A stretch of 12,699 bases of DNA from Paracoccaceae bacterium (GTDB lineage Bacteria > Pseudomonadota > Alphaproteobacteria > Rhodobacterales > Rhodobacteraceae), in contig NYTF01000029.1 of assembly GCA_002683355.1 (NCBI GenBank), positions 14,742 through 27,440 on the forward strand, read 5' to 3'. The notes under the pieces are model-generated. The model was not told where the DNA came from. It did not search any database and worked only from the letters and a program-made list of their open reading frames with translations. The first letter of the stretch is position 1. Each line of letters starts with the position of its first letter. The position numbers and the translations under genes are program-made. Positions 913 to 10,847 of the stretch are shown piece after piece.

Positions 913-1671
913 TTGAATTTAACAGACCAGGAAGCAAACTTAGTTTTTTCCATTATGCGAGATCTTAGTGGTGATTTTGATCATAATGAAGTGAGACAAA
1001 GGGTTGGAAAGACTCTGTTAGAATTGCTTAATGCAGACTATTTCGCTTCTTATGTTTGGGATGAAGATCAAAAGAAATTTGTATCTTGTGTTCAATTAAA
1101 CATGAATAATGATAATTTGAAAGTTTATGAGGATTACTATCAATTTCATGATCCAATCACGCCTACTCTACAAAGAAGAAAGAACGCCACACCTGTTAGT
1201 GAAGTGATGAGCCACGATAGATTGGTACGAACAGAGTTTTTTAATGATTTTTTGAAAAAAGATGGATTATGCTTTGGGCTAAATTATTTCGCTTATAATC
1301 GTGGAGAAAATATTGGTGATGTTCGAATTTGGCGAGGTTCTCAAAAAGAAGATTTTACAGACCGTGACGCAAAAATAGTTGATGCAATAGGTCCAAGTTT
1401 TGTAAATGCATTAATAAGAGCGCAAAATGCTGATGAGTTTGCTCCTTCTCTAAGGTTCTCACAATTAAAAGAGGATTTTCGGTTCACTACACGTCAAGCA
1501 GAGATAGCCGATTTATTAGTTTTAGGGCTCATGGATGAAGAGATATGTGAGAAATTATGCATTTCAAAACCAACTTTACGAACGCACATAACAGCAATTT
1601 TTAGAAAATCGGGATTAAACCGAAGAACACAATTGGCGCAATGTTTGGCGGAAAAAAATCATCATTTGTGA
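913..1671 (+). CDS. LuxR-family transcriptional regulator with GAF-like N-terminal sensor domain
   Basis: The 252-residue protein has two parts. Residues about 20-168 look like the GAF-like or autoinducer-binding-like sensor domain found in LuxR-family solos, with the stretch RTEFFNDFL (106-114) and GDVRIWR (135-141) typical of that type. Residues about 190-245 form the C-terminal LuxR/GerE helix-turn-helix, with the expected TRQAEIADLL, ISKPTLRTHI and IFRKSGL motifs and a recognition helix near 218-234. No cognate LuxI synthase is visible. The start is TTG; GAGGA at 900-904 lies 8 bases before it, and no in-frame ATG occurs until residue 15, inside the sensor region. It sits immediately upstream of the catabolic run and is probably its substrate-responsive activator. 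The ligand is unknown. Confidence 0.88.
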   Translation: MNLTDQEANLVFSIMRDLSGDFDHNEVRQRVGKTLLELLNADYFASYVWDEDQKKFVSCVQLNMNNDNLKVYEDYYQFHDPITPTLQRRKNATPVSEVMSHDRLVRTEFFNDFLKKDGLCFGLNYFAYNRGENIGDVRIWRGSQKEDFTDRDAKIVDAIGPSFVNALIRAQNADEFAPSLRFSQLKEDFRFTTRQAEIADLLVLGLMDEEICEKLCISKPTLRTHITAIFRKSGLNRRTQLAQCLAEKNHHL

Positions 1672-1693: not shown

Positions 1694-1726
1694 GCATAAG
1701 ATAAGATAAATTTTATGGGGGAACGA

Positions 1727-3118
1727 ATGACTTCTGATTCTATGAAGCTTGGTGTTGTAGAGCTACTGAATTTAATGGACACCAAAAAAATATCTGCAAA
1801 AGAATATGCTGCTGAGTTATCAAGAAGACTTAAAGATCTTAATCATTTAAACTCAATTCAATCTTTTAACGAAGATCTCTTATTAGAGAATGCTGAGATT
1901 GCAGATGAAAAAAGAGAATCTGGTGTAGCAGGAAAAATATGTGGCATACCCTTCGTTGTGAAAGATAATATGAATTCTAAGATTTTTCCAACAACAGCAT
2001 GCACTACAGCGTTGATGAATAATCATTTAGATATTAATGCTGAAACAATTGATTTATTGCTAAAAGAAGATGCAATTTTGGGTGCAAAGGCGAACATGCA
2101 TGAATTGGCATTTGGAATTACTTCTAATAATTCAGTTACTGGACCAGTAAAGAACCCTGTCAATCAAGAAAAATTTGCTGGCGGCTCGTCAGGGGGAACT
2201 GCAGCTGCTGTAGCATCAGGAATTTTCCCCATAGGATTGGGTACTGATACAGGTGGGTCCTGCCGCATCCCAGCTGCTCTTTGTGGCGTGGTGGGTTTTA
2301 GACCCTCGACGGGAAGATATTCTGCTGAAGGAGTAGTTCCAATTTCTCACACTAGAGATACCGTTGGAACTATCGCCAGGAATGTAAGTGATATTGTCTT
2401 ATTTGATGATATTTTGTGTGATACAGATAAGGTTGATAATGATAAAACTTTTAATGATATCACACTTGGGATTCCAAGTGAGGTGTTCTTTGATAATCTA
2501 GAGCCTCAGGTAGAAAAAACGGTCCAAGCTCAGTTGTCAGCCCTTGAAAAAGTGGGGGTTAAATTGAAAGAAGTAACCATGTCGGAAATCTGGAGCCATA
2601 ATGAAGCTTTTGGGTTCCCAGTCGCACTTTATGAAGTTATGCAGGATTTACCAGATTATTTGCAGAAATATGTCCCAAGTGTAAGTTTTCATGAATTAGT
2701 GGAGGGTATTAGATCTCCAGACGTATTGGGGGTTTTTAATAGTCAGATGGGTGCTGATGCTATGCCAAAAGAGGCTTATGATGCAGCAATTAATGTTCAC
2801 AGGCCTGAAATGCTTAAAATTTATAAGTCAACTTTTGACGAGCACAAGCTAGATGCAATTATTTTCCCCACAACCCCACTAACGGCACGAAATATAGGTG
2901 AGGACGAAACGGTTGAACTGAATGGGACACAAGTTCCAGTATTTCCAACTTACATTCGAAATACGGATCTTGGATCTAACATAGGTGCGCCAGGAATTTC
3001 TTTGCCCTGTGGAGTTTCAACTGACTTGCCTGTTGGCATCGAACTTGAAGGCTTGCCTGGTGATGACCAAAATTTACTAAATTTAGCAAAATCTATTGAG
3101 ATGACGCTCACATCTTAA
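1727..3118 (+). CDS. Amidase-signature family enzyme (Ser-cisSer-Lys hydrolase)
   Basis: This cytoplasmic enzyme hydrolyses a carboxamide or related C-N bond. Numbered from the ATG at 1727 (463 residues), the catalytic triad is Lys79 (VVKDN), Ser154 (first serine of GGSSGG) and nucleophile Ser178 (TDTGGSCRIPAA); the spacings match those of GatA and FAAH. An in-frame ATG at 1715 would add four residues, but it has no ribosome site, whereas the GGGGG at 1717-1721 serves the ATG at 1727. There is no signal peptide. Length fits the family's usual 450-500. It leads the operon, just before an amide/urea-type transporter, so it most likely acts on the imported compound. It could equally be a ureide, indoleacetamide-like or aryl amide hydrolase; sequence alone cannot choose. 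GatA itself is unlikely, since no gatB or gatC is nearby. Confidence 0.9.
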   Translation: MTSDSMKLGVVELLNLMDTKKISAKEYAAELSRRLKDLNHLNSIQSFNEDLLLENAEIADEKRESGVAGKICGIPFVVKDNMNSKIFPTTACTTALMNNHLDINAETIDLLLKEDAILGAKANMHELAFGITSNNSVTGPVKNPVNQEKFAGGSSGGTAAAVASGIFPIGLGTDTGGSCRIPAALCGVVGFRPSTGRYSAEGVVPISHTRDTVGTIARNVSDIVLFDDILCDTDKVDNDKTFNDITLGIPSEVFFDNLEPQVEKTVQAQLSALEKVGVKLKEVTMSEIWSHNEAFGFPVALYEVMQDLPDYLQKYVPSVSFHELVEGIRSPDVLGVFNSQMGADAMPKEAYDAAINVHRPEMLKIYKSTFDEHKLDAIIFPTTPLTARNIGEDETVELNGTQVPVFPTYIRNTDLGSNIGAPGISLPCGVSTDLPVGIELEGLPGDDQNLLNLAKSIEMTLTS

Positions 3119-3146
3119 AGATTTTTAAATTATTGAGCGTAAAAAT

Positions 3147-3152
3147 GGAGGG
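3147..3152 (+). promoter_or_regulatory. Ribosome binding site fixing the binding-protein start
   Basis: GGAGGG lies 4 bases before the ATG at 3157. It decides that ATG over the in-frame TTG at 3133 and the ATG at 3145, which would put eight or four extra residues in front of a twin-arginine signal peptide. Confidence 0.75.
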
Positions 3153-3156
3153 TAAA

Positions 3157-4323
3157 ATGAAAAGACGTGACTTTATTAAATCATCCCTAACAGCTGTCGC
3201 TGCGACGGCAGCATTTCAAACTGTGGCTGGTAAAGCAATGGCCGGATCAGTTTTGAAAGTGGGAGTAATGATACCACTGAGTGGGCCGGCAGGTTTGTTT
3301 GGTCCTGCTTCAAAAAATGTGTCTCAAATGGCTGCTGAAGACATTAACGCTGCTGGAGGAATTCTTGGCAGACAGATTGAAATAATTTTTGGTGATGCAG
3401 GGTTGCCACCAGCCGAAGCAGCACAAACAGCATTGAGACTATGGCGCGGTGAAGGTTGTGAAGCTTTTATTGGCATGCATGATAGTGCGGTTCGCGGGGC
3501 TTTAATAAATGTATTTAAGGAACAAGTCCCATATGTTTATTGTCCAAATTATGAAGGTGGAGAATGTGCCAATGGAGTTTACTATGTTGGTGAAACGCCA
3601 GCTCAGTCTGTTGTCCCTACGATGACATGGCTTGCTAATGAAAAAAATTGCAAAAAATTCTACCTTATCGGGAATGATTACAATTGGCCTCGAGACACCA
3701 ATGCAATTGCTAAAAATACGATTGCTGATATTGGTGGTGAGGTTGTAGGCGAAGAGTATATGCCATTTACCGTCGATAACTTTGATTCTAGTTTAGCTAA
3801 AATTAAAGACAGTGGAGCTGACATGGTTTTGATCACATTGGTTGGTGGCGCGTCGGTATCTTTTAATCGGGCATTTGCCAGCTTTGGTTTAGCAGATAAT
3901 GTCATGCGGCTGGGTACCCTTATTGATGAAAATACATTGATGGGTATTGGCGCAGAAAACTCAAAGAATGTCTTTTCAGCAGCGAGCTATTTTGCCAACA
4001 TTGAAACTGCTGATGCTAAAGCTTTCGCTGAGAGTTACTCTGCAAAATTTGGAAGTAAAGCTGCGTTATTAAATGGGCTTAGTACATCTTGTTATGATGG
4101 CTTAACCGCACTTGATGCAATCGCGGAGAGGGCAGGTGGCTTATCTGTGAAGGAAATGGACTCTGTAGCTGAAGGTACAGCATTCGGAAGCCCTCGTGGG
4201 GATGCGGTCATGAAAAACCGACATTTAACTCTCGATATTTATTTGGCTGAAGCTAAAGGTACAGATTTTAAAATTGTTAAGACATTTTCAAAACAAGAAC
4301 CTGGAAATTTTTGTAAAGCGTAA
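3157..4323 (+). CDS. Tat-exported periplasmic substrate-binding protein, amide/urea ABC family (UrtA/FmdD/AmiC-like)
   Basis: The 388-residue protein is the ligand receptor of the ABC importer that follows. It begins with a twin-arginine signal: MKRRDFIK, a hydrophobic stretch to about residue 28 and a likely cut after AMA (residues 27-29), so it is exported folded. The mature part is a type I periplasmic-binding fold of the Peripla_BP_5/6 group, starting with VGVMIPLSGPAG and DINAAGGILGR. The stretches NYEGGE, FYLIGNDYNWPR and VVGEEYMPF closely resemble UrtA and short-chain-amide binding proteins. The ligand-contact segment that in UrtA reads roughly CWTS-SRK is here MHDSAVRGA, so the ligand is probably not urea itself. 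The GTG of the permease gene follows 3 bases after the stop. Confidence 0.9.
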   Translation: MKRRDFIKSSLTAVAATAAFQTVAGKAMAGSVLKVGVMIPLSGPAGLFGPASKNVSQMAAEDINAAGGILGRQIEIIFGDAGLPPAEAAQTALRLWRGEGCEAFIGMHDSAVRGALINVFKEQVPYVYCPNYEGGECANGVYYVGETPAQSVVPTMTWLANEKNCKKFYLIGNDYNWPRDTNAIAKNTIADIGGEVVGEEYMPFTVDNFDSSLAKIKDSGADMVLITLVGGASVSFNRAFASFGLADNVMRLGTLIDENTLMGIGAENSKNVFSAASYFANIETADAKAFAESYSAKFGSKAALLNGLSTSCYDGLTALDAIAERAGGLSVKEMDSVAEGTAFGSPRGDAVMKNRHLTLDIYLAEAKGTDFKIVKTFSKQEPGNFCKA

Positions 4324-4326
4324 TTA

Positions 4327-5178
4327 GTGGAAGCTCTAATAACGTTTGTCTTAAACTTTATATATTCATCAGCGACCCTGGCACTAATTGTGCTGGGGCT
4401 TGCGATGGTTTTTGGTCTGCTCGGTGTTATGAATATGGCACACGGCGAGTTTGTGATGCTAGGTGCTTATAGTGCTTATGTTGTGCAATCTTTAGGACTA
4501 AATTTTATATGGGCCATTCCAATTTCAATACTTGTTTGTGTGGTAGTTGGATGGTTGATGGAATGGACGATTATAAGGCATCTATATAATCGTCCATTTG
4601 ATACTCTTTTGGCAACTTGGGGTGTTGCCATTTTAATTCGCAAGGGTATTGAAGCTATTTTCTCACGTGATTACAAAAGCGTTGATCAAGTGATGCCGGG
4701 AACTATAGATATTTTAGGAATTACATACCCTTCTTATCGACTAATATTAATTGCTATAATTATTTTTTTATTTGTGACTTTGTTTGCCTGGTATCAAAAA
4801 AGTAAAACTGGATTGCGGATAAGAGCTATGGTTCAGAATCCTGGTCTAGCTTCGGCTGTTGGTATTGATACTTCGCGGCTTTCTACGGTGACGTTCATAA
4901 TAGGGGTTTCATTCGCTGGTTTGGCTGGTGTGCTTTTAGCACCATTGGTGAGGGTAGAGCCTTATATCGGTCTAGATTACCTGCTTTCATCATTTTTTAT
5001 ACTGATCGTAGGTGGATTAGGTACTTTGGAGGGACTTTTAATAGGTTCAGCTGTAATAGGTGGTAGTGATGCTTTAATTTCAACAATATTTGATAAGACA
5101 GCTGGTTATTTGTCAGTATTGCTTCTCTCAATTTTGTTTCTATGGTTAAGACCTGATGGCATATACTCTCGTCGTTAA
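4327..5178 (+). CDS. ABC transporter inner-membrane permease, LivH/UrtB type
   Basis: This 283-residue, very hydrophobic protein is one of the two membrane subunits of the importer, with roughly eight predicted membrane segments. NMAHGEF at residues 36-42 is the family hallmark, followed by MLGAYSAYVVQ; RPFDTLLATWG and the closing GGLGTLEGLLIG are also typical of UrtB/LivH. The cytoplasmic coupling loop that contacts the ATPase falls around residues 162-186 (GLRIRAMVQNP, VGID). The start is GTG at 4327, only 3 bases after the binding-protein stop and without a clear ribosome site, so translation is probably coupled. Its 3' end overlaps the next gene by 23 bases. The resemblance favours the urea/short-chain amide branch over branched-chain amino acids. 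Confidence 0.9.
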   Translation: MEALITFVLNFIYSSATLALIVLGLAMVFGLLGVMNMAHGEFVMLGAYSAYVVQSLGLNFIWAIPISILVCVVVGWLMEWTIIRHLYNRPFDTLLATWGVAILIRKGIEAIFSRDYKSVDQVMPGTIDILGITYPSYRLILIAIIIFLFVTLFAWYQKSKTGLRIRAMVQNPGLASAVGIDTSRLSTVTFIIGVSFAGLAGVLLAPLVRVEPYIGLDYLLSSFFILIVGGLGTLEGLLIGSAVIGGSDALISTIFDKTAGYLSVLLLSILFLWLRPDGIYSRR

Positions 5179-6898
5179 AAGCCTGCTTTTAGCAGTATTA
5201 ATACTGATACCATTTTTGACTAATAGCTATTTTGCTTATCAATTGGGATTGTATCTTCTATATGGGATGGTTGGTCAGGGTATAGCTCTTTGCTGGGGAA
5301 AAGGAGGCTTTTTGCCTTTGGGACAAGCCCTATTTTTTGGTATCGGTGCGTATATTTCTGGAACAATATTACAAGATAGTGTTGGTTGGTTATCAGTAAT
5401 ATCTGCTTTAATTTTGTCTATACTTATACCAGCGTTTATTGCTGGTTTAGTAGGATTATTGGTTTTTGACAGGCAAATTGGTTCGGGTCCTTATTTTTCA
5501 TTAATCACGTTAGCATTATCCTTATTAGGATATCAATTAGCTAACTCACAGGTATGGATAACTGGCGGGTTTAATGGATTAACAGGTATAGGTGGTCTGC
5601 CTGGAATTGATAGTTATGGAAGTCTATATTTTTTTATTGTTGGTGCGTTAGCAATTTCAACATTCGTTTTAGTCTATTTGATACGAACACCTTTCGGACA
5701 GTTATTAGAGGCTGTCCGAGAAAATGAGGAGCGAACACAATTTTTAGGTATTAATACTAGTTTGGTAAAAGCAGCTGCGTTTGCTATCAGTGGTGCTATT
5801 GCAGGTCTGGCAGGAGCTTTTTTTGCCCCACACCAAGGAATTGTAACCCCACAAGTTGTTGGATTCATACTTTCTGCAGAATTGGTTATTTGGGCTGCTG
5901 TTGGGGGAAGATTCGGATTTATTGGTCCAATTGTGGGAGCAGTGTTGATTGGTTTCTTGGCATCAGGGCTGAGAGATAGCTTTGCATATTGGGAGGTAGG
6001 TGTAGCTTTGGTGTTTATTTTAGTTGTTCTGCGAATGCCTGGTGGAATTTCAGGCATGGTAACATCCTTATTAAGACGCTTTAACATTGATATTTTGTCC
6101 AATAACGTATCCTCACGATCTCAAATTATTCCCAAAAAAAATAATTTGCGAAAGCCAGTTTTGAAATTTGATAATGTATCAGTCAAGGTGGGCAATGTTT
6201 CAATCCTTGATAATCTTTCCTTTACCATAGAAAATCCTGGTGTGCATTGTTTGATTGGTCCTAATGGCGCTGGAAAAACCTCTGCCTTAAATGCACTAAC
6301 GGGTAAGTTAGATTACAATACAGGTAATGTTTATTGGTCTGGCAAATCATTAAAAGGAATACGACCTTTTCGTACGCCAAAAATTGGTATTGGACGAAAA
6401 TTACAAGTACCATCAATTTTTTCTAATCTCACAGTTCGGCAGAATATTGATATCGCAATTTGGGTAAATAGACTCAATATAAAGCACCTATTTTCATTAC
6501 GTCCATACTCATGGGGCACTAATTTGCTGAAAGATTTAGAAGAGTCTTTTCCTTTTCTAAACAAAACTGATGTCCATGCTGGAACTTTGTCAGTTGGGCA
6601 GAGACAAATGCTTGATTTTGCAATGACTGTTTTAGCTGAGCCTGACCTGATTTTACTTGATGAACCTTGCGCTGGATTGTCGAAATACGAAACAGAAAAA
6701 ATGATTTTAGCAATATCAAAATTAGCCAAAACATCAAAAGCAACATTTATTATTGTCGAGCATGATATGCATGTTGTGGAATTATTGTCTGATAATGTGT
6801 TTGTTATGCATCAAGGGAAACTGCTTGCTCAAGGTTCCTTAGAAGAAATCCGAGCGAACAAGGAGGTGCAAGTTGTTTACGCTGGAGGATCGAAATGA
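5156..6898 (+). CDS. Fused LivM/UrtC-type permease and LivG/UrtD-type ATPase
   Basis: One 580-residue polypeptide carries the second permease and the first ATPase of the importer, which are separate proteins in the classical liv and urt systems. Residues 1 to about 305 are membrane-spanning, with a coupling loop near 184-209 (LLEAVRENEERTQFLGIN). A polar linker of about 30 residues joins the ATPase from about residue 335: Walker A GPNGAGKT at 368-375, signature LSVGQ at 478-482 (a Val in place of the usual second Gly), Walker B LILLDEP at 498-504 and switch His536. The reading frame is continuous through the joint, so this is a true fusion. The ATG at 5156 overlaps the preceding gene by 23 bases and has no evident ribosome site, suggesting coupled translation. 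Confidence 0.9.
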   Translation: MAYTLVVKSLLLAVLILIPFLTNSYFAYQLGLYLLYGMVGQGIALCWGKGGFLPLGQALFFGIGAYISGTILQDSVGWLSVISALILSILIPAFIAGLVGLLVFDRQIGSGPYFSLITLALSLLGYQLANSQVWITGGFNGLTGIGGLPGIDSYGSLYFFIVGALAISTFVLVYLIRTPFGQLLEAVRENEERTQFLGINTSLVKAAAFAISGAIAGLAGAFFAPHQGIVTPQVVGFILSAELVIWAAVGGRFGFIGPIVGAVLIGFLASGLRDSFAYWEVGVALVFILVVLRMPGGISGMVTSLLRRFNIDILSNNVSSRSQIIPKKNNLRKPVLKFDNVSVKVGNVSILDNLSFTIENPGVHCLIGPNGAGKTSALNALTGKLDYNTGNVYWSGKSLKGIRPFRTPKIGIGRKLQVPSIFSNLTVRQNIDIAIWVNRLNIKHLFSLRPYSWGTNLLKDLEESFPFLNKTDVHAGTLSVGQRQMLDFAMTVLAEPDLILLDEPCAGLSKYETEKMILAISKLAKTSKATFIIVEHDMHVVELLSDNVFVMHQGKLLAQGSLEEIRANKEVQVVYAGGSK

Positions 6899-7649: not shown

Positions 7650-8132
7650 GTGACTAAAAATTTAGCAAGATGGTCTGGTGAGATTGTTGGGTTGCATAAG
7701 ACTCCTCGATCATTTCTGCCTATGAAAAATTTTCGGTGTTTATCTCTTATTGCAGGGGTTGGTATTGATGGTGATAGGCACGCTACTGGAGAGGCTTTTC
7801 ATTCAGATAGGCCAGAAGAAGGGCGCCAAATTACTTTATTTGAGGAAGAAACAATTGATGCTCTTTTGAGAGATCACAATATTATTCTTAGACCAGAAGA
7901 CCATAGAAGAAATGTAACAACGCGTGATGTTCCTCTGAATCATTTGGTGGGTAAAAAATTTAAGATTGGTGAGGCAATTCTGGAAGGCACCAGACTTTCA
8001 ACGCCATGTCGCCATATTGAACAGATAACTGGTCTAGAGCTTTTCAATCAACTGCTAAATAGGTCAGGGTTAAATGCCAAAATAATAGTTAGTGGGAAAA
8101 TTTTTACTGGTGATGAGATAAGGATGGTTTAA
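7650..8132 (+). CDS. Stand-alone MOSC-domain protein, probable molybdenum-cofactor reductase subunit (YiiM-like)
   Basis: The 160-residue protein is little more than one MOSC domain. Visible motifs are GIDGDRH (38-44), QITLFEEE (60-67), RRNVTT (86-91), LEGTRLSTPCRH (111-122) and the closing SGKIFTGDEI. Cys120 in the TPCRH motif is in the place of the conserved cysteine that in this superfamily ligates the molybdenum. Known relatives (mARC, YcbX, YiiM) reduce N-hydroxylated compounds such as hydroxylaminopurines, hydroxamates and amidoximes, taking electrons from a separate or fused flavin/iron-sulfur module. The next gene, 4 bases downstream, encodes such a module. The GTG start has GGGAG at 7638-7642, 7 bases away. 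Family membership is clear; the reductase role is inferred. Confidence 0.85.
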   Translation: MTKNLARWSGEIVGLHKTPRSFLPMKNFRCLSLIAGVGIDGDRHATGEAFHSDRPEEGRQITLFEEETIDALLRDHNIILRPEDHRRNVTTRDVPLNHLVGKKFKIGEAILEGTRLSTPCRHIEQITGLELFNQLLNRSGLNAKIIVSGKIFTGDEIRMV

Positions 8133-8136
8133 ATCT

Positions 8137-9075
8137 ATGCGTAATAGAATTCATAGTGTAACTACTGAGATTGTTTCTATTGAAGATGATGTGAACAATA
8201 TCAAGATATTTACGTTATCAGACCCTGATGGCTGGCCTCTTCCAAGTTTTATGCCAGGAGCTCATTTGGATATTTATTTACCGAGTGGTCTAATACGACA
8301 GTACTCTCTTTGTAGTGATCCCAACAATAAAACCCAATACATGATAGCAGTGCAAATGGAGATAGAAGGACGTGGGGGCTCAAGTGAAATGCACAATTTA
8401 AGTGAAGGCATGATCTTACCAGTGTCGCTTCCACGTAATCACTTTTCACTTGGAGATGCAAAGCGTCATATATTCATAGCTGGTGGCATTGGAATAACGC
8501 CATTTTTATCAATGTTACCAGATTTAATCAGTAAAGAAATTGATTGGGAATTACATATTTGTGCAAAATTTGGAGAAAAAATTTCATGCCAAAGCTTGCT
8601 TAAGAAATATGAAAAGGAACCAAATATCTACAAATATATAAGTCATGGAGGAAATCGTCTATCGATTGAAAAAGTTATTTCAAAGATTAAGTCTGACGAA
8701 CATTTATATTGTTGTGGGCCTAGTTCGATGATTAATGATGCTAATATAAATGGAAAGGCGTTGGGAGATCGGTTGCATTTTGAAAAGTTTGGTATTGACG
8801 AACATTTAGAAGATGCGGCTTATCAAGTTGTTCTTAAGAAAAGTGGTAGTGTGGTTAAAGTCCCGAAGGGACAAACTATGCTGGGAGCTTTAAGAGTAGC
8901 TGGTTTTGATGTGCCTGCTTCTTGTGAGGGAGGAATTTGCCTTGAATGTAAGACGAGGTTTCTGGCGGGAACCCCAATTCACCGTGATCTTGTTATGCAA
9001 CCATCTGACAGAAAAGAATTTATAACACCATGTGTTTCAAGTTGTTCGTCAGAAAGTATAGAGTTGGACCTTTAG
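8137..9075 (+). CDS. Class IA oxidoreductase: FMN/NAD(P)H reductase with C-terminal 2Fe-2S ferredoxin (VanB / phthalate dioxygenase reductase type)
   Basis: The 312-residue protein passes electrons from NAD(P)H through flavin to a plant-type 2Fe-2S cluster. Domain order is flavin barrel (RQYSL at 54-58 binds the flavin), nucleotide-binding fold (GGIGITP at 116-122; CCGP at 192-195) and ferredoxin from about 228. The cluster cysteines are Cys263, Cys268, Cys271 and Cys299 (C-x4-C-x2-C-x27-C), all present, and the typical GTPIHRD follows. Such reductases normally serve a Rieske oxygenase or a demethylase, but none is in the window. The MOSC gene sits 4 bases upstream and is the obvious partner; natural fusions of MOSC with this kind of reductase are known. 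The ribosome site (AAGGA, 8120-8124) is rather distant, so translation may be coupled to the MOSC gene. Confidence 0.92.
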   Translation: MRNRIHSVTTEIVSIEDDVNNIKIFTLSDPDGWPLPSFMPGAHLDIYLPSGLIRQYSLCSDPNNKTQYMIAVQMEIEGRGGSSEMHNLSEGMILPVSLPRNHFSLGDAKRHIFIAGGIGITPFLSMLPDLISKEIDWELHICAKFGEKISCQSLLKKYEKEPNIYKYISHGGNRLSIEKVISKIKSDEHLYCCGPSSMINDANINGKALGDRLHFEKFGIDEHLEDAAYQVVLKKSGSVVKVPKGQTMLGALRVAGFDVPASCEGGICLECKTRFLAGTPIHRDLVMQPSDRKEFITPCVSSCSSESIELDL

Positions 9076-9132: not shown

Positions 9133-9813
9133 ATGGCAAACTTTGTGTTAGTACATGGTTCATGGGCTGGCGGTTGGCAATGGGCAGCAATTAGAGAAAG
9201 CCTTGAGAAGGACGGCCATCGTGTTCTGACCCCCAGTCTGACTGGAATGTCTGACCGGCATCATTTGATAAATGAAAATGTAGGCCTTCAAACTCATATT
9301 GATGATATTGCTAACCTTATTGAATGGGAGGATCTTTATAACGTAATTTTGGTAGGGCATAGTTATGGTGGGATGGTTATAACTGGAGCTGCTGCCCAAG
9401 TTAAAGATAGACTAGCCCATTTAGTTTATGTTGATGCCTTTTTGCCAAGAGCAGGTGAGTGTGCTTGGGATTTATTACCATGGCAACCAGAGATTTTTGA
9501 AACGTTGCGTTTAAAAGACAAGCCATGGCAGGTAGAGCCAGTAGATAAGATGACTTATTTTCCTGAATTAGAGAGTTTTGATATGGATCGATCAACTCCG
9601 ATGACAATTCGAACCCATTCAGATAAGTTGCCATCTGCAACAACAGATATTCCAGGTACATTTATAGAATGTACGCAAGAACCATCATTTTTTGGTGAGA
9701 TTGCGGTGCGAGCAAAATCTGATGGTATGAGGCATGTTTCTATAAAAGCAGGTCATTATGTGATCATAACACACTCAAATGAGGTGGTGAAAATATTAAA
9801 AGAGGCTTTATAG
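9133..9813 (+). CDS. Alpha/beta hydrolase (AB hydrolase_6, small esterase / hydroxynitrile-lyase-like)
   Basis: This 226-residue cytoplasmic protein has the compact fold shared by plant salicylate esterases, hydroxynitrile lyases and many bacterial esterases. HGSW is at residues 8-11, the nucleophile elbow GHSYGG at 75-80 with Ser77, and the catalytic His at 208 (AGHYV). The segment that usually supplies the acid, written C-T-x-D in many relatives, reads CTQEP here (180-184), so Glu183 seems to replace Asp; Asp101 in VDAFLP is a well-conserved family residue but not usually the acid. AGGAG at 9122-9126 lies 6 bases before the ATG, and 57 bp separate it from the reductase gene. Ester, thioester or C-C cleavage are all possible. 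Being inside the run, it probably processes a pathway intermediate. Confidence 0.85.
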   Translation: MANFVLVHGSWAGGWQWAAIRESLEKDGHRVLTPSLTGMSDRHHLINENVGLQTHIDDIANLIEWEDLYNVILVGHSYGGMVITGAAAQVKDRLAHLVYVDAFLPRAGECAWDLLPWQPEIFETLRLKDKPWQVEPVDKMTYFPELESFDMDRSTPMTIRTHSDKLPSATTDIPGTFIECTQEPSFFGEIAVRAKSDGMRHVSIKAGHYVIITHSNEVVKILKEAL

Positions 9814-9893: not shown

Positions 9894-10847
9894 TTGGCCC
9901 AAGTATTTAAACTTGATGAAATCCTAAAAGCTTTAAAAGATATTGATGTGGTAGATGTTATAGCTCAGGGTTTTAAAGCTCTATCTGAGGAAAAAGTTGT
10001 TATTCCACCTATTGGCGAAATGCTTTTCCCTGATGTTGATGGAGAGCTTCACATTAAATATGGTGCAATAAAAGGAGATGAAGATTTTGTTGTAAAAATG
10101 GCAACTGGCTTTTTCCAGAATCCAAGTATAGGGCTCAGCCCATTCAGTGGTTGTATGATGGTTTTTAGCCAAAAAACAGGTCATATTAGCTCTGTCCTTT
10201 TAGAAGAGGGTGAACTTACAAATCATCGGACAGCGGCAGCTGGTGCTGTCGCAGCAAAATGTTTAGCACCAAAAAATGTCAATATGATTGGAATTGTAGG
10301 AACTGGAGTTCAATCGCGTTTGCAAGCATTGTACCTACAAAAAATGACAGATTGCAGAAACCTTGTCATCTGGGGTCGTAACAAAGATAAGGCAGAACTA
10401 GCTGCTGTTGACATGCAAAAAATGGGATACGAAGCAAATGTAATAGAAAATTTGAATGATTTATGCAAAGTAAGTCAAATTATTGTGACTACCACGCCTG
10501 CGACGAGTCCGTTACTTAAACGCGAAATGATTACTCCTGGGACGCACATAACGGCGATGGGGTCTGACACAAGCGATAAATGTGAACTTTCTCCCGAAAT
10601 ACTTGATTTAGCTGATATTGTTGCCGCTGATAGTATTGAGCAGGCAATACAAAGGGGGGAAATTTCTCAGGCATTGAAAGCCGGTAAATGTAACAAAGAT
10701 AAATTGGTTGAATTAGGATCAATTATCATTGACCCTTCGAAGGGTCGTACAAACGATCAGCAAATAACAATAGCTGATTTATCTGGTGTTGCCATACAAG
10801 ATATTATGATAGCAAAAGCTGTTACAGACAAATTAGGAAGTAAATAA
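9894..10847 (+). CDS. Ornithine cyclodeaminase / mu-crystallin family NAD(P)-dependent enzyme, imine-reductase-like (BhcD/EutC-like)
   Basis: The 317-residue protein belongs to the ornithine cyclodeaminase family, which also contains alanine dehydrogenase, ketimine reductases, iminosuccinate reductase BhcD and ectoine-pathway EutC. Lys68 (VVKMATGFFQNP) and Arg112 (LTNHRTAAAGAVA) are the conserved substrate-site residues; the Rossmann loop is GIVGTGVQ (133-140), and IADLSGVAIQD is near the end. The wording around IKYGAIKGDEDFVVK looks to me closer to the BhcD/alanine-dehydrogenase side than to true ornithine cyclodeaminase. The start is TTG at 9894, supported by GAGG at 9883-9886; the next in-frame ATG is at residue 43, too late. 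The gene is one base from the PLP dehydratase, implying that the two act in sequence, with this enzyme reducing an imine to an amino acid. Confidence 0.88.
   Translation: MAQVFKLDEILKALKDIDVVDVIAQGFKALSEEKVVIPPIGEMLFPDVDGELHIKYGAIKGDEDFVVKMATGFFQNPSIGLSPFSGCMMVFSQKTGHISSVLLEEGELTNHRTAAAGAVAAKCLAPKNVNMIGIVGTGVQSRLQALYLQKMTDCRNLVIWGRNKDKAELAAVDMQKMGYEANVIENLNDLCKVSQIIVTTTPATSPLLKREMITPGTHITAMGSDTSDKCELSPEILDLADIVAADSIEQAIQRGEISQALKAGKCNKDKLVELGSIIIDPSKGRTNDQQITIADLSGVAIQDIMIAKAVTDKLGSK

Follow-up and report, generated by a model that had tools for sequence, protein, structure and literature searches.

A small MOSC protein and an adjoining PDR/VanB-type reductase as a candidate two-component N-reductase in transporter-linked catabolic gene clusters

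The gene cluster

The window, by which we mean the whole 12,699-nt stretch of DNA analysed here, comes from an assembly of 1.88 Mb that is 76.5% complete. All of its named genes lie on the plus strand between positions 913 and 11826.

913..1671, +, LuxR-type regulator, first gene of the cluster
1715..3118, +, indoleacetamide hydrolase-family amidase, scoring 552.5 bits (cut-off 532)
3133..4323, +, substrate-binding protein of a urea/short-amide-type ABC importer, scoring under the curated cut-offs for urea itself
4327..5178, +, ABC permease of the UrtB/LivH type
5156..6898, +, fused ABC permease and ATPase of the UrtC/UrtD type, 580 aa
6895..7590, +, second ABC ATPase in the LivF/UrtE position, labelled from position and sequence, with 59 bases between its end and the MOSC gene
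7650..8132, +, MOSC, single-domain protein (PF03473) of 160 aa with a GTG start; proposed Mo-cofactor catalytic subunit
8137..9075, +, RED, PDR/VanB-type reductase of class IA, 312 aa; proposed electron donor to MOSC
9133..9813, +, alpha/beta hydrolase, 226 aa, the next gene after RED
9894..10847, +, ornithine cyclodeaminase/mu-crystallin (OCD) family protein, 317 aa
10849..11826, +, PLP-dependent ammonia-lyase of the threonine/serine dehydratase type, 325 aa

The Pfam scan covered ten window proteins; the second ABC ATPase and the partial genes at both ends of the window lay outside it. The OCD family takes in ketimine and imino-acid reductases. Two other loci resemble the window closely. L002 preserves the complete operon, with an amidase that is 74% identical and an alpha/beta hydrolase that is 85% identical to those of the window. 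L129, from genome G033, has the importer, the MOSC–RED pair and the hydrolase (81% identical), and its amidase (46% identical) occupies a downstream position; no OCD or PLP gene was found in the 14.1 kb examined. The permease–ATPase fusion has full-length matches in both L002 and L129, which suggests that it is kept. Most of the other clusters have an XRE-type regulator in place of the LuxR-type protein at the cluster head.

The MOSC protein

MOSC scores 30.4 bits against PF03473, above the curated threshold of 22.7, and is the only match to this family in the 76.5%-complete assembly. Cys120 is invariant in all 22 aligned MOSC sequences (the query counted), and the cysteine is kept in 74 of 74 paired loci, in agreement with the preliminary description of a single-domain MOSC protein with a conserved Cys120. 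The predicted structure matches the folds of YuaD, YiiM and mARC1, the nearest being the single-domain YuaD from Bacillus subtilis (PDB entry 1oru). Sequence and profile searches of solved structures returned no MOSC entry, YuaD included, and the fold is assigned from the structure model only. A reductase gene adjoins the window protein.

PF03473 is the only Pfam match in the 160-residue chain at E ≤ 1e-3, and there is no MOSC_N domain. Neither is a ferredoxin fused to the chain, the Fer2 domain being found on RED instead. The structures of YiiM (E. coli, 5yhi; G. stearothermophilus, 5yhh) share the MOSC fold and the cysteine, but the C-terminal three-helix domain of YiiM is absent here, as the MOSC match runs to residue 158 of 160. 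The protein had been described as mARC/YcbX-like; given the missing MOSC_N and ferredoxin domains and a nearest fold that is the single-domain YuaD, this label does not hold and, on the predicted model, MOSC is a small YuaD-type protein and not a YcbX or mARC.

The adjoining reductase

MOSC ends at position 8132 and RED begins at 8137, leaving four bases between the genes. Residues 11–312 of RED align with phthalate dioxygenase reductase (PDB entry 2pia; E = 4.7e-53), the best-scoring solved relative. Pfam identifies NAD_binding_1 and a C-terminal Fer2 domain; it gives no flavin-domain match, and the flavin assignment comes from the 2pia alignment and the RxYS motif. The sequence carries both RxYS and CX4CX2C...C, each of which is present in 73 of 74 RED relatives, and the domain order is flavin, NAD, plant-type 2Fe-2S, the order called class IA. 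A complete class IA reductase 4 bp after MOSC, as first described, is thus borne out.

The accompanying remark that no oxygenase is present stands for the window, where none was found among the ten scanned proteins, but fails for the genome, which has nine Rieske-domain matches elsewhere, one of them adjoining the genome's own PDR-type paralogue of RED. In view of these nine matches, RED might also serve an oxygenase. A loose Rieske pattern matched 11 of 91 sequences, the window not among them, and the only motif of these that looks canonical by eye belongs to L014, where it lies 4.6 kb away from the pair.

Recurrence of the pair

Scanning genome contigs with the 22-sequence alignment gave 80 loci; the scan used subfamily motifs, so these do not represent MOSC genes in general. 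Pairing and neighbours were counted using tblastn. RED lies within 150 bases downstream of MOSC in 73 of the 80 loci; in L012 it is 2.4 kb away on the opposite strand, and no RED was detected in the examined flanks of L030, L035, L044, L071, L079 and L080, down to an E value of 1e-3. Because the scan relied on subfamily motifs, a separate draw of 398 genomes was made across the phylum. The MOSC subfamily occurs in ten of these at E ≤ 1e-30, the source genome counted. Seven of the nine other loci have RED, and an XRE-type regulator and an MHS-type transporter occur in these same seven; none of the three was found in the examined stretches of L144 and L145. An adjacency survey, as put forward in the preliminary description, points to a pairing beyond chance, both in the 80 loci and in the phylum draw.

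A draw of 100 genomes from the family of the source genome gave 20 matches to the alignment at E ≤ 1e-3 and four at E ≤ 1e-35, again with the source genome counted. In G033 (L083) RED adjoins MOSC, in G028 (L084) there is no RED within the 1.5 kb examined downstream, and the sequence of G022 (L085) ends ∼0.15 kb after the MOSC match and is uninformative on pairing. The four matches in 100 genomes, together with the unpaired gene in G028, mark the subfamily as an accessory one that can occur unpaired. Over 74 pairs, the distance matrices of MOSC and RED show a correlation of r = 0.89, and the pair is found in alpha-, beta- and gammaproteobacteria, on chromosomes and plasmids, joined to differing importers. 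That MOSC and RED constitute one genetic unit is well supported, and the genome context, in which they recur as a unit within transport and catabolic clusters, upholds the earlier placement of the pair in a catabolic operon.

The earlier wording also presented the two genes as the split halves of a fusion. Separate genes are the rule (73 of 80), and a joined MOSC+RED query, for which 7999 candidates were scored, gave no fusion among the best 120 of its 3885 hits, all of which are of RED length (285–339 aa), so that 'split' is not an apt term. Natural fusions do exist, as was stated: a review describes YiiM-type MOSC proteins with flavin and 2Fe-2S domains, such as UniProt Q89NR8, which is YiiM-like MOSC, flavin and [2Fe-2S] on a single chain (PMC10637980). 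By this description Q89NR8 has the same three redox parts as the window pair, whereas in the window these are spread over two genes and the MOSC is of a different subfamily.

No reductase was found in the examined stretches around the MOSC relatives L030, L035, L044, L079, L080, L084, L144 and L145, of which L030 and L035 are located just past a ClpX-like gene and a sigma-70-family gene. These eight possibly belong to a different subfamily.

Neighbourhoods in other bacteria

In the 80 loci, the raw tblastn counts of neighbours at 1e-10 are 63 for the XRE-type regulator, 34 for the MHS-type transporter, 19 for TctC, 15 for GST, 12 for a TPP enzyme, nine for a relative of pyruvic oxime dioxygenase (POD), three for the alpha/beta hydrolase and two each for the amidase and the OCD protein; L002, which is of the window's own lineage, supplies one each of the last three. 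'XRE' is the annotated label of this regulator, while 'cupin' for the same protein is a reading of the sequence by eye. The transporters beside the pair are of the ABC, TRAP, TTT, MHS and TonB types, and this wide spread may mean that there is more than one substrate.

Individual arrangements are varied. By annotation, a Sulfitobacter plasmid has the order XRE–TRAP–GST–MOSC–RED, a Bradyrhizobium plasmid locus combines a TTT transporter with a CoA-transferase, an acyl-CoA dehydrogenase and a TPP enzyme, and the Rhizobium plasmid loci L111 and L125 have amino-acid ABC transporter genes, MOSC, RED and an OCD-family gene in that order. The OCD-family genes of L111 and L125 gave no tblastn match to that of the window at 1e-6. 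A relative of the window OCD protein (27% identity) comes after the pair in L013. The two loci with an amidase are L002 and L081, and in the latter it comes after RED.

L013 is labelled Pirellulaceae. Its pair is 63% and 46% identical to that of the window and is accompanied by a TonB receptor, a POD relative and the OCD-type gene; either transfer or mis-binning would account for the pair in this record.

The link to pyruvic oxime dioxygenase

The recurrent neighbour in L040 is a class II aldolase by Pfam. Three of the nine POD relatives (L067, L040 and L068) were compared with the structure database. The L067 product scores 443.8 bits against the POD entry 8il8 and its relatives 8ix6 and 8iqa, with the next entry at 94.9 bits; the L040 and L068 products score 255 and 249 bits against the POD entries, compared with 113 and 102 bits against other class II aldolases. 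Entry 8il8 is the POD of Alcaligenes faecalis (PMC11841055). In an alignment with motif-based mapping all nine relatives keep the His triad, the Gln of GQ, the Phe-His of RFH and the Glu of WPG...EG, residues that are named in PMC11841055, and the mobile-loop Glu47 is seemingly kept only in L067 and L069. Judged by sequence, L067 and L069 are close POD orthologues, and the remaining seven may lie closer to PODh, the weaker homologue.

POD relatives were found in 15 of 49 carrier genomes and in six of the 398 drawn genomes (Fisher test, 2e-11, a value that takes no account of relatedness). These 49 genomes belong to 50 of the 80 loci, comprising nearly all non-Bradyrhizobium carriers and a few Bradyrhizobium; L002, L044, L080, L078 and most Bradyrhizobium were left out of this count. 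In nine of the 15 genomes the POD relative is within the fetched flanks; in G137 it is beyond the fetched stretch. In Bradyrhizobium sp. WSM3983 (L020), the source of a crystallized POD (PMC11841055), the POD gene is ∼14 kb from the MOSC gene, apparently on the same contig, as judged by its length and a shared TctC gene. In Cupriavidus metallidurans CH34, matches to POD, TctC, the XRE regulator and the MOSC–RED pair lie side by side.

Some of these neighbours also accompany POD where the pair is absent. Among the ten loci of this kind whose sequence covers POD, the XRE-type regulator adjoins POD in L116, L117, L118, L122 and L123, and an MHS-type transporter is present in L114, L120, L121 and L122. 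The published pod clusters have transporter and GST gene types of a similar kind (PMC8629993): the pod/podh clusters of the heterotrophic nitrifier A. faecalis have GST-type neighbours and a transporter of the MHS or TctC type, as MOSC–RED clusters do, while the term MOSC occurs nowhere in the main text of PMC11841055 or of PMC8629993. A link between MOSC–RED and POD clusters was not found in searches of open-licence PMC papers. The association should be read with caution. At 1e-50 POD was absent from all nine other genomes of the phylum draw that have the pair subfamily, and no MOSC gene was found within ∼9 kb of POD in its six POD genomes (two of these loci end at contig ends). The source genome gave no POD match at 1e-50 in its 76.5%-complete assembly, and no Aldolase_II domain was found in the ten scanned window proteins.

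Proposed mechanism and alternatives

On balance, MOSC and RED probably form a two-component molybdenum reductase that cleaves an N–O bond in a small organic compound brought in by the cell. Hydride from NAD(P)H would go to the flavin of RED, whose 2Fe-2S cluster would pass single electrons to a molybdenum cofactor held at Cys120 in the MOSC cavity, where the N–O bond would be cleaved. The imine, amide or amine product would then be worked up by the amidase, alpha/beta hydrolase, OCD-family reductase and PLP ammonia-lyase of the window. Two routes through the operon can be envisaged: a hydroxamate could be reduced to an amide for the amidase, or an oxime could be reduced to an imine for the OCD-family reductase and the ammonia-lyase. 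We infer the molybdenum binding, electron path and N–O chemistry from the genes, domains, predicted fold, cysteine, pairing and neighbourhood. The recurrence of the pair beside transporters, and sometimes beside an oxime-oxidizing enzyme, suggests N–O deoxygenation of imported food compounds. As for the substrate class, our guess is that oximes (giving imines) and hydroxamates (giving amides) are better candidates than amidoximes, N-oxides or N-hydroxy amines. The genome has MoaA, MoeA and a Mo-hydroxylase domain among its Moco-related genes; MoaC was not found, probably through assembly loss, since the assembly is 76.5% complete.

N–O reduction is the chemistry of the MOSC proteins assayed so far, although the same 2023 review regards both their physiological substrates and whether N-reduction is their biological function as uncertain (PMC10637980). 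Moco-dependent N-reduction has been reported for YiiM, the electron partner of which was unidentified as of 2018, and the known chains are mARC with Cytb5 and Cytb5R, YcbX with CysJ, and the Vibrio VCA0924 fusion (PMC5818509). The window pair would share with the mARC and YcbX systems the logic of NAD(P)H to flavin to a one-electron carrier to the MOSC molybdenum, but MOSC has neither MOSC_N nor a fused ferredoxin and the donor is a PDR/VanB protein of class IA. From its sequence features, the pair is a candidate new form of MOSC N-reductase, in which a small MOSC protein would have a dedicated PDR/VanB-type donor and the two belong to catabolic modules linked to transporters. With the likely donor encoded beside MOSC, such clusters offer a self-contained system for testing substrate and donor.

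The electron chain from RED to MOSC given in the preliminary description is the likeliest reading of the pair. A very improbable alternative is that RED works for at least one Rieske oxygenase encoded outside the cluster and that MOSC, though adjacent, has a role of its own; phthalate dioxygenase reductase as the top-scoring solved relative and the nine Rieske matches would fit this, but the pairing with MOSC recurs across three proteobacterial classes, the loose Rieske pattern misses the window and looks canonical only in L014, and the other PDR-type reductase of the genome already adjoins a Rieske oxygenase. We also think it improbable that the pair carries out a general detoxification of N-hydroxylated bases. 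MOSC belongs to the same domain family as YiiM and YcbX, which detoxify such bases in E. coli (PMC5818509), but its patchy accessory spread (four of the 100 genomes drawn from the family at E ≤ 1e-35 and ten of 398 in the phylum draw, the source genome in both) and its co-location with importers and catabolic genes argue against such a role.

The other two alternatives are specific forms of N–O reduction. The pair could turn hydroxamic acids into amides, which the cluster amidase would convert to the acid and ammonia; mARC carries out the first of these conversions (PMC10637980), the window operon combines an indoleacetamide hydrolase-family amidase with a urea/amide-type importer, and amidases recur elsewhere in L129 (46% identical) and after RED in L081. 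With an amidase in just two of the 80 loci (L002 and L081), we regard this as doubtful. It is likewise a tentative possibility, and on the unlikely side, that the pair is specifically an oxime reductase, converting R2C=NOH to an imine and hence to a ketone and ammonia, or to an amino acid through an imine reductase, as the reductive counterpart of POD. mARC is reported to reduce oximes (PMC10637980), POD relatives accompany the pair in nine of the 80 loci, the transporters are related, and OCD-family genes lie just downstream in the window, in L002 and in L013, and by annotation in L111 and L125. Against this, POD is absent from 71 of the 80 loci, from nine of nine in the phylum draw and from the window, the related L129 cluster has neither OCD nor ammonia-lyase in the 14.1 kb examined, the Rhizobium OCD-family genes give no match to that of the window at 1e-6, and the POD clusters may act on another, external substrate (PMC8629993). 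The fullest version of the oxime reading, in which a dedicated bacterial oxime reductase would convert imported oximino acids to imino acids, with the carbon and nitrogen regained through imine reductases and ammonia-lyases, is speculative and we hold it to be unlikely. Its interest is that the POD-cluster link supplies a concrete substrate class and, if true, would connect molybdenum with the turnover of organic oximes in heterotrophic nitrification; an oxime reductase would then be a MOSC enzyme whose physiological pathway is defined. Reduction of canavanine or hydroxyguanidine was considered and dropped, as no lyase of that pathway was found among the scanned window proteins.

Further clusters

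The Mesorhizobium and Agrobacterium plasmid loci L112 and L128 carry a RED-paired MOSC branch that is ∼45% identical to the MOSC of the window, with PLP aminotransferase-type genes before the pair and a large gene annotated as a transketolase or a dehydrogenase after it. The Ruegeria pomeroyi DSS-3 megaplasmid (L109, 4024–8407) has two MOSC genes at most 3.5 kb apart: one, of 230 aa, adjoins a MarR regulator, the other is paired with a PDR/VanB reductase, and redoxin and heme-protein genes are among those between them. The MOSC–RED pair of this strain has the locus tags SPO_RS20710 and SPO_RS20715. An E. coli plasmid (L113, CP099135.1, 5638–9117) has a compact module consisting of an MHS transporter, MOSC, RED and an XRE regulator, which looks mobile because IS26 copies and an integrase are located upstream.
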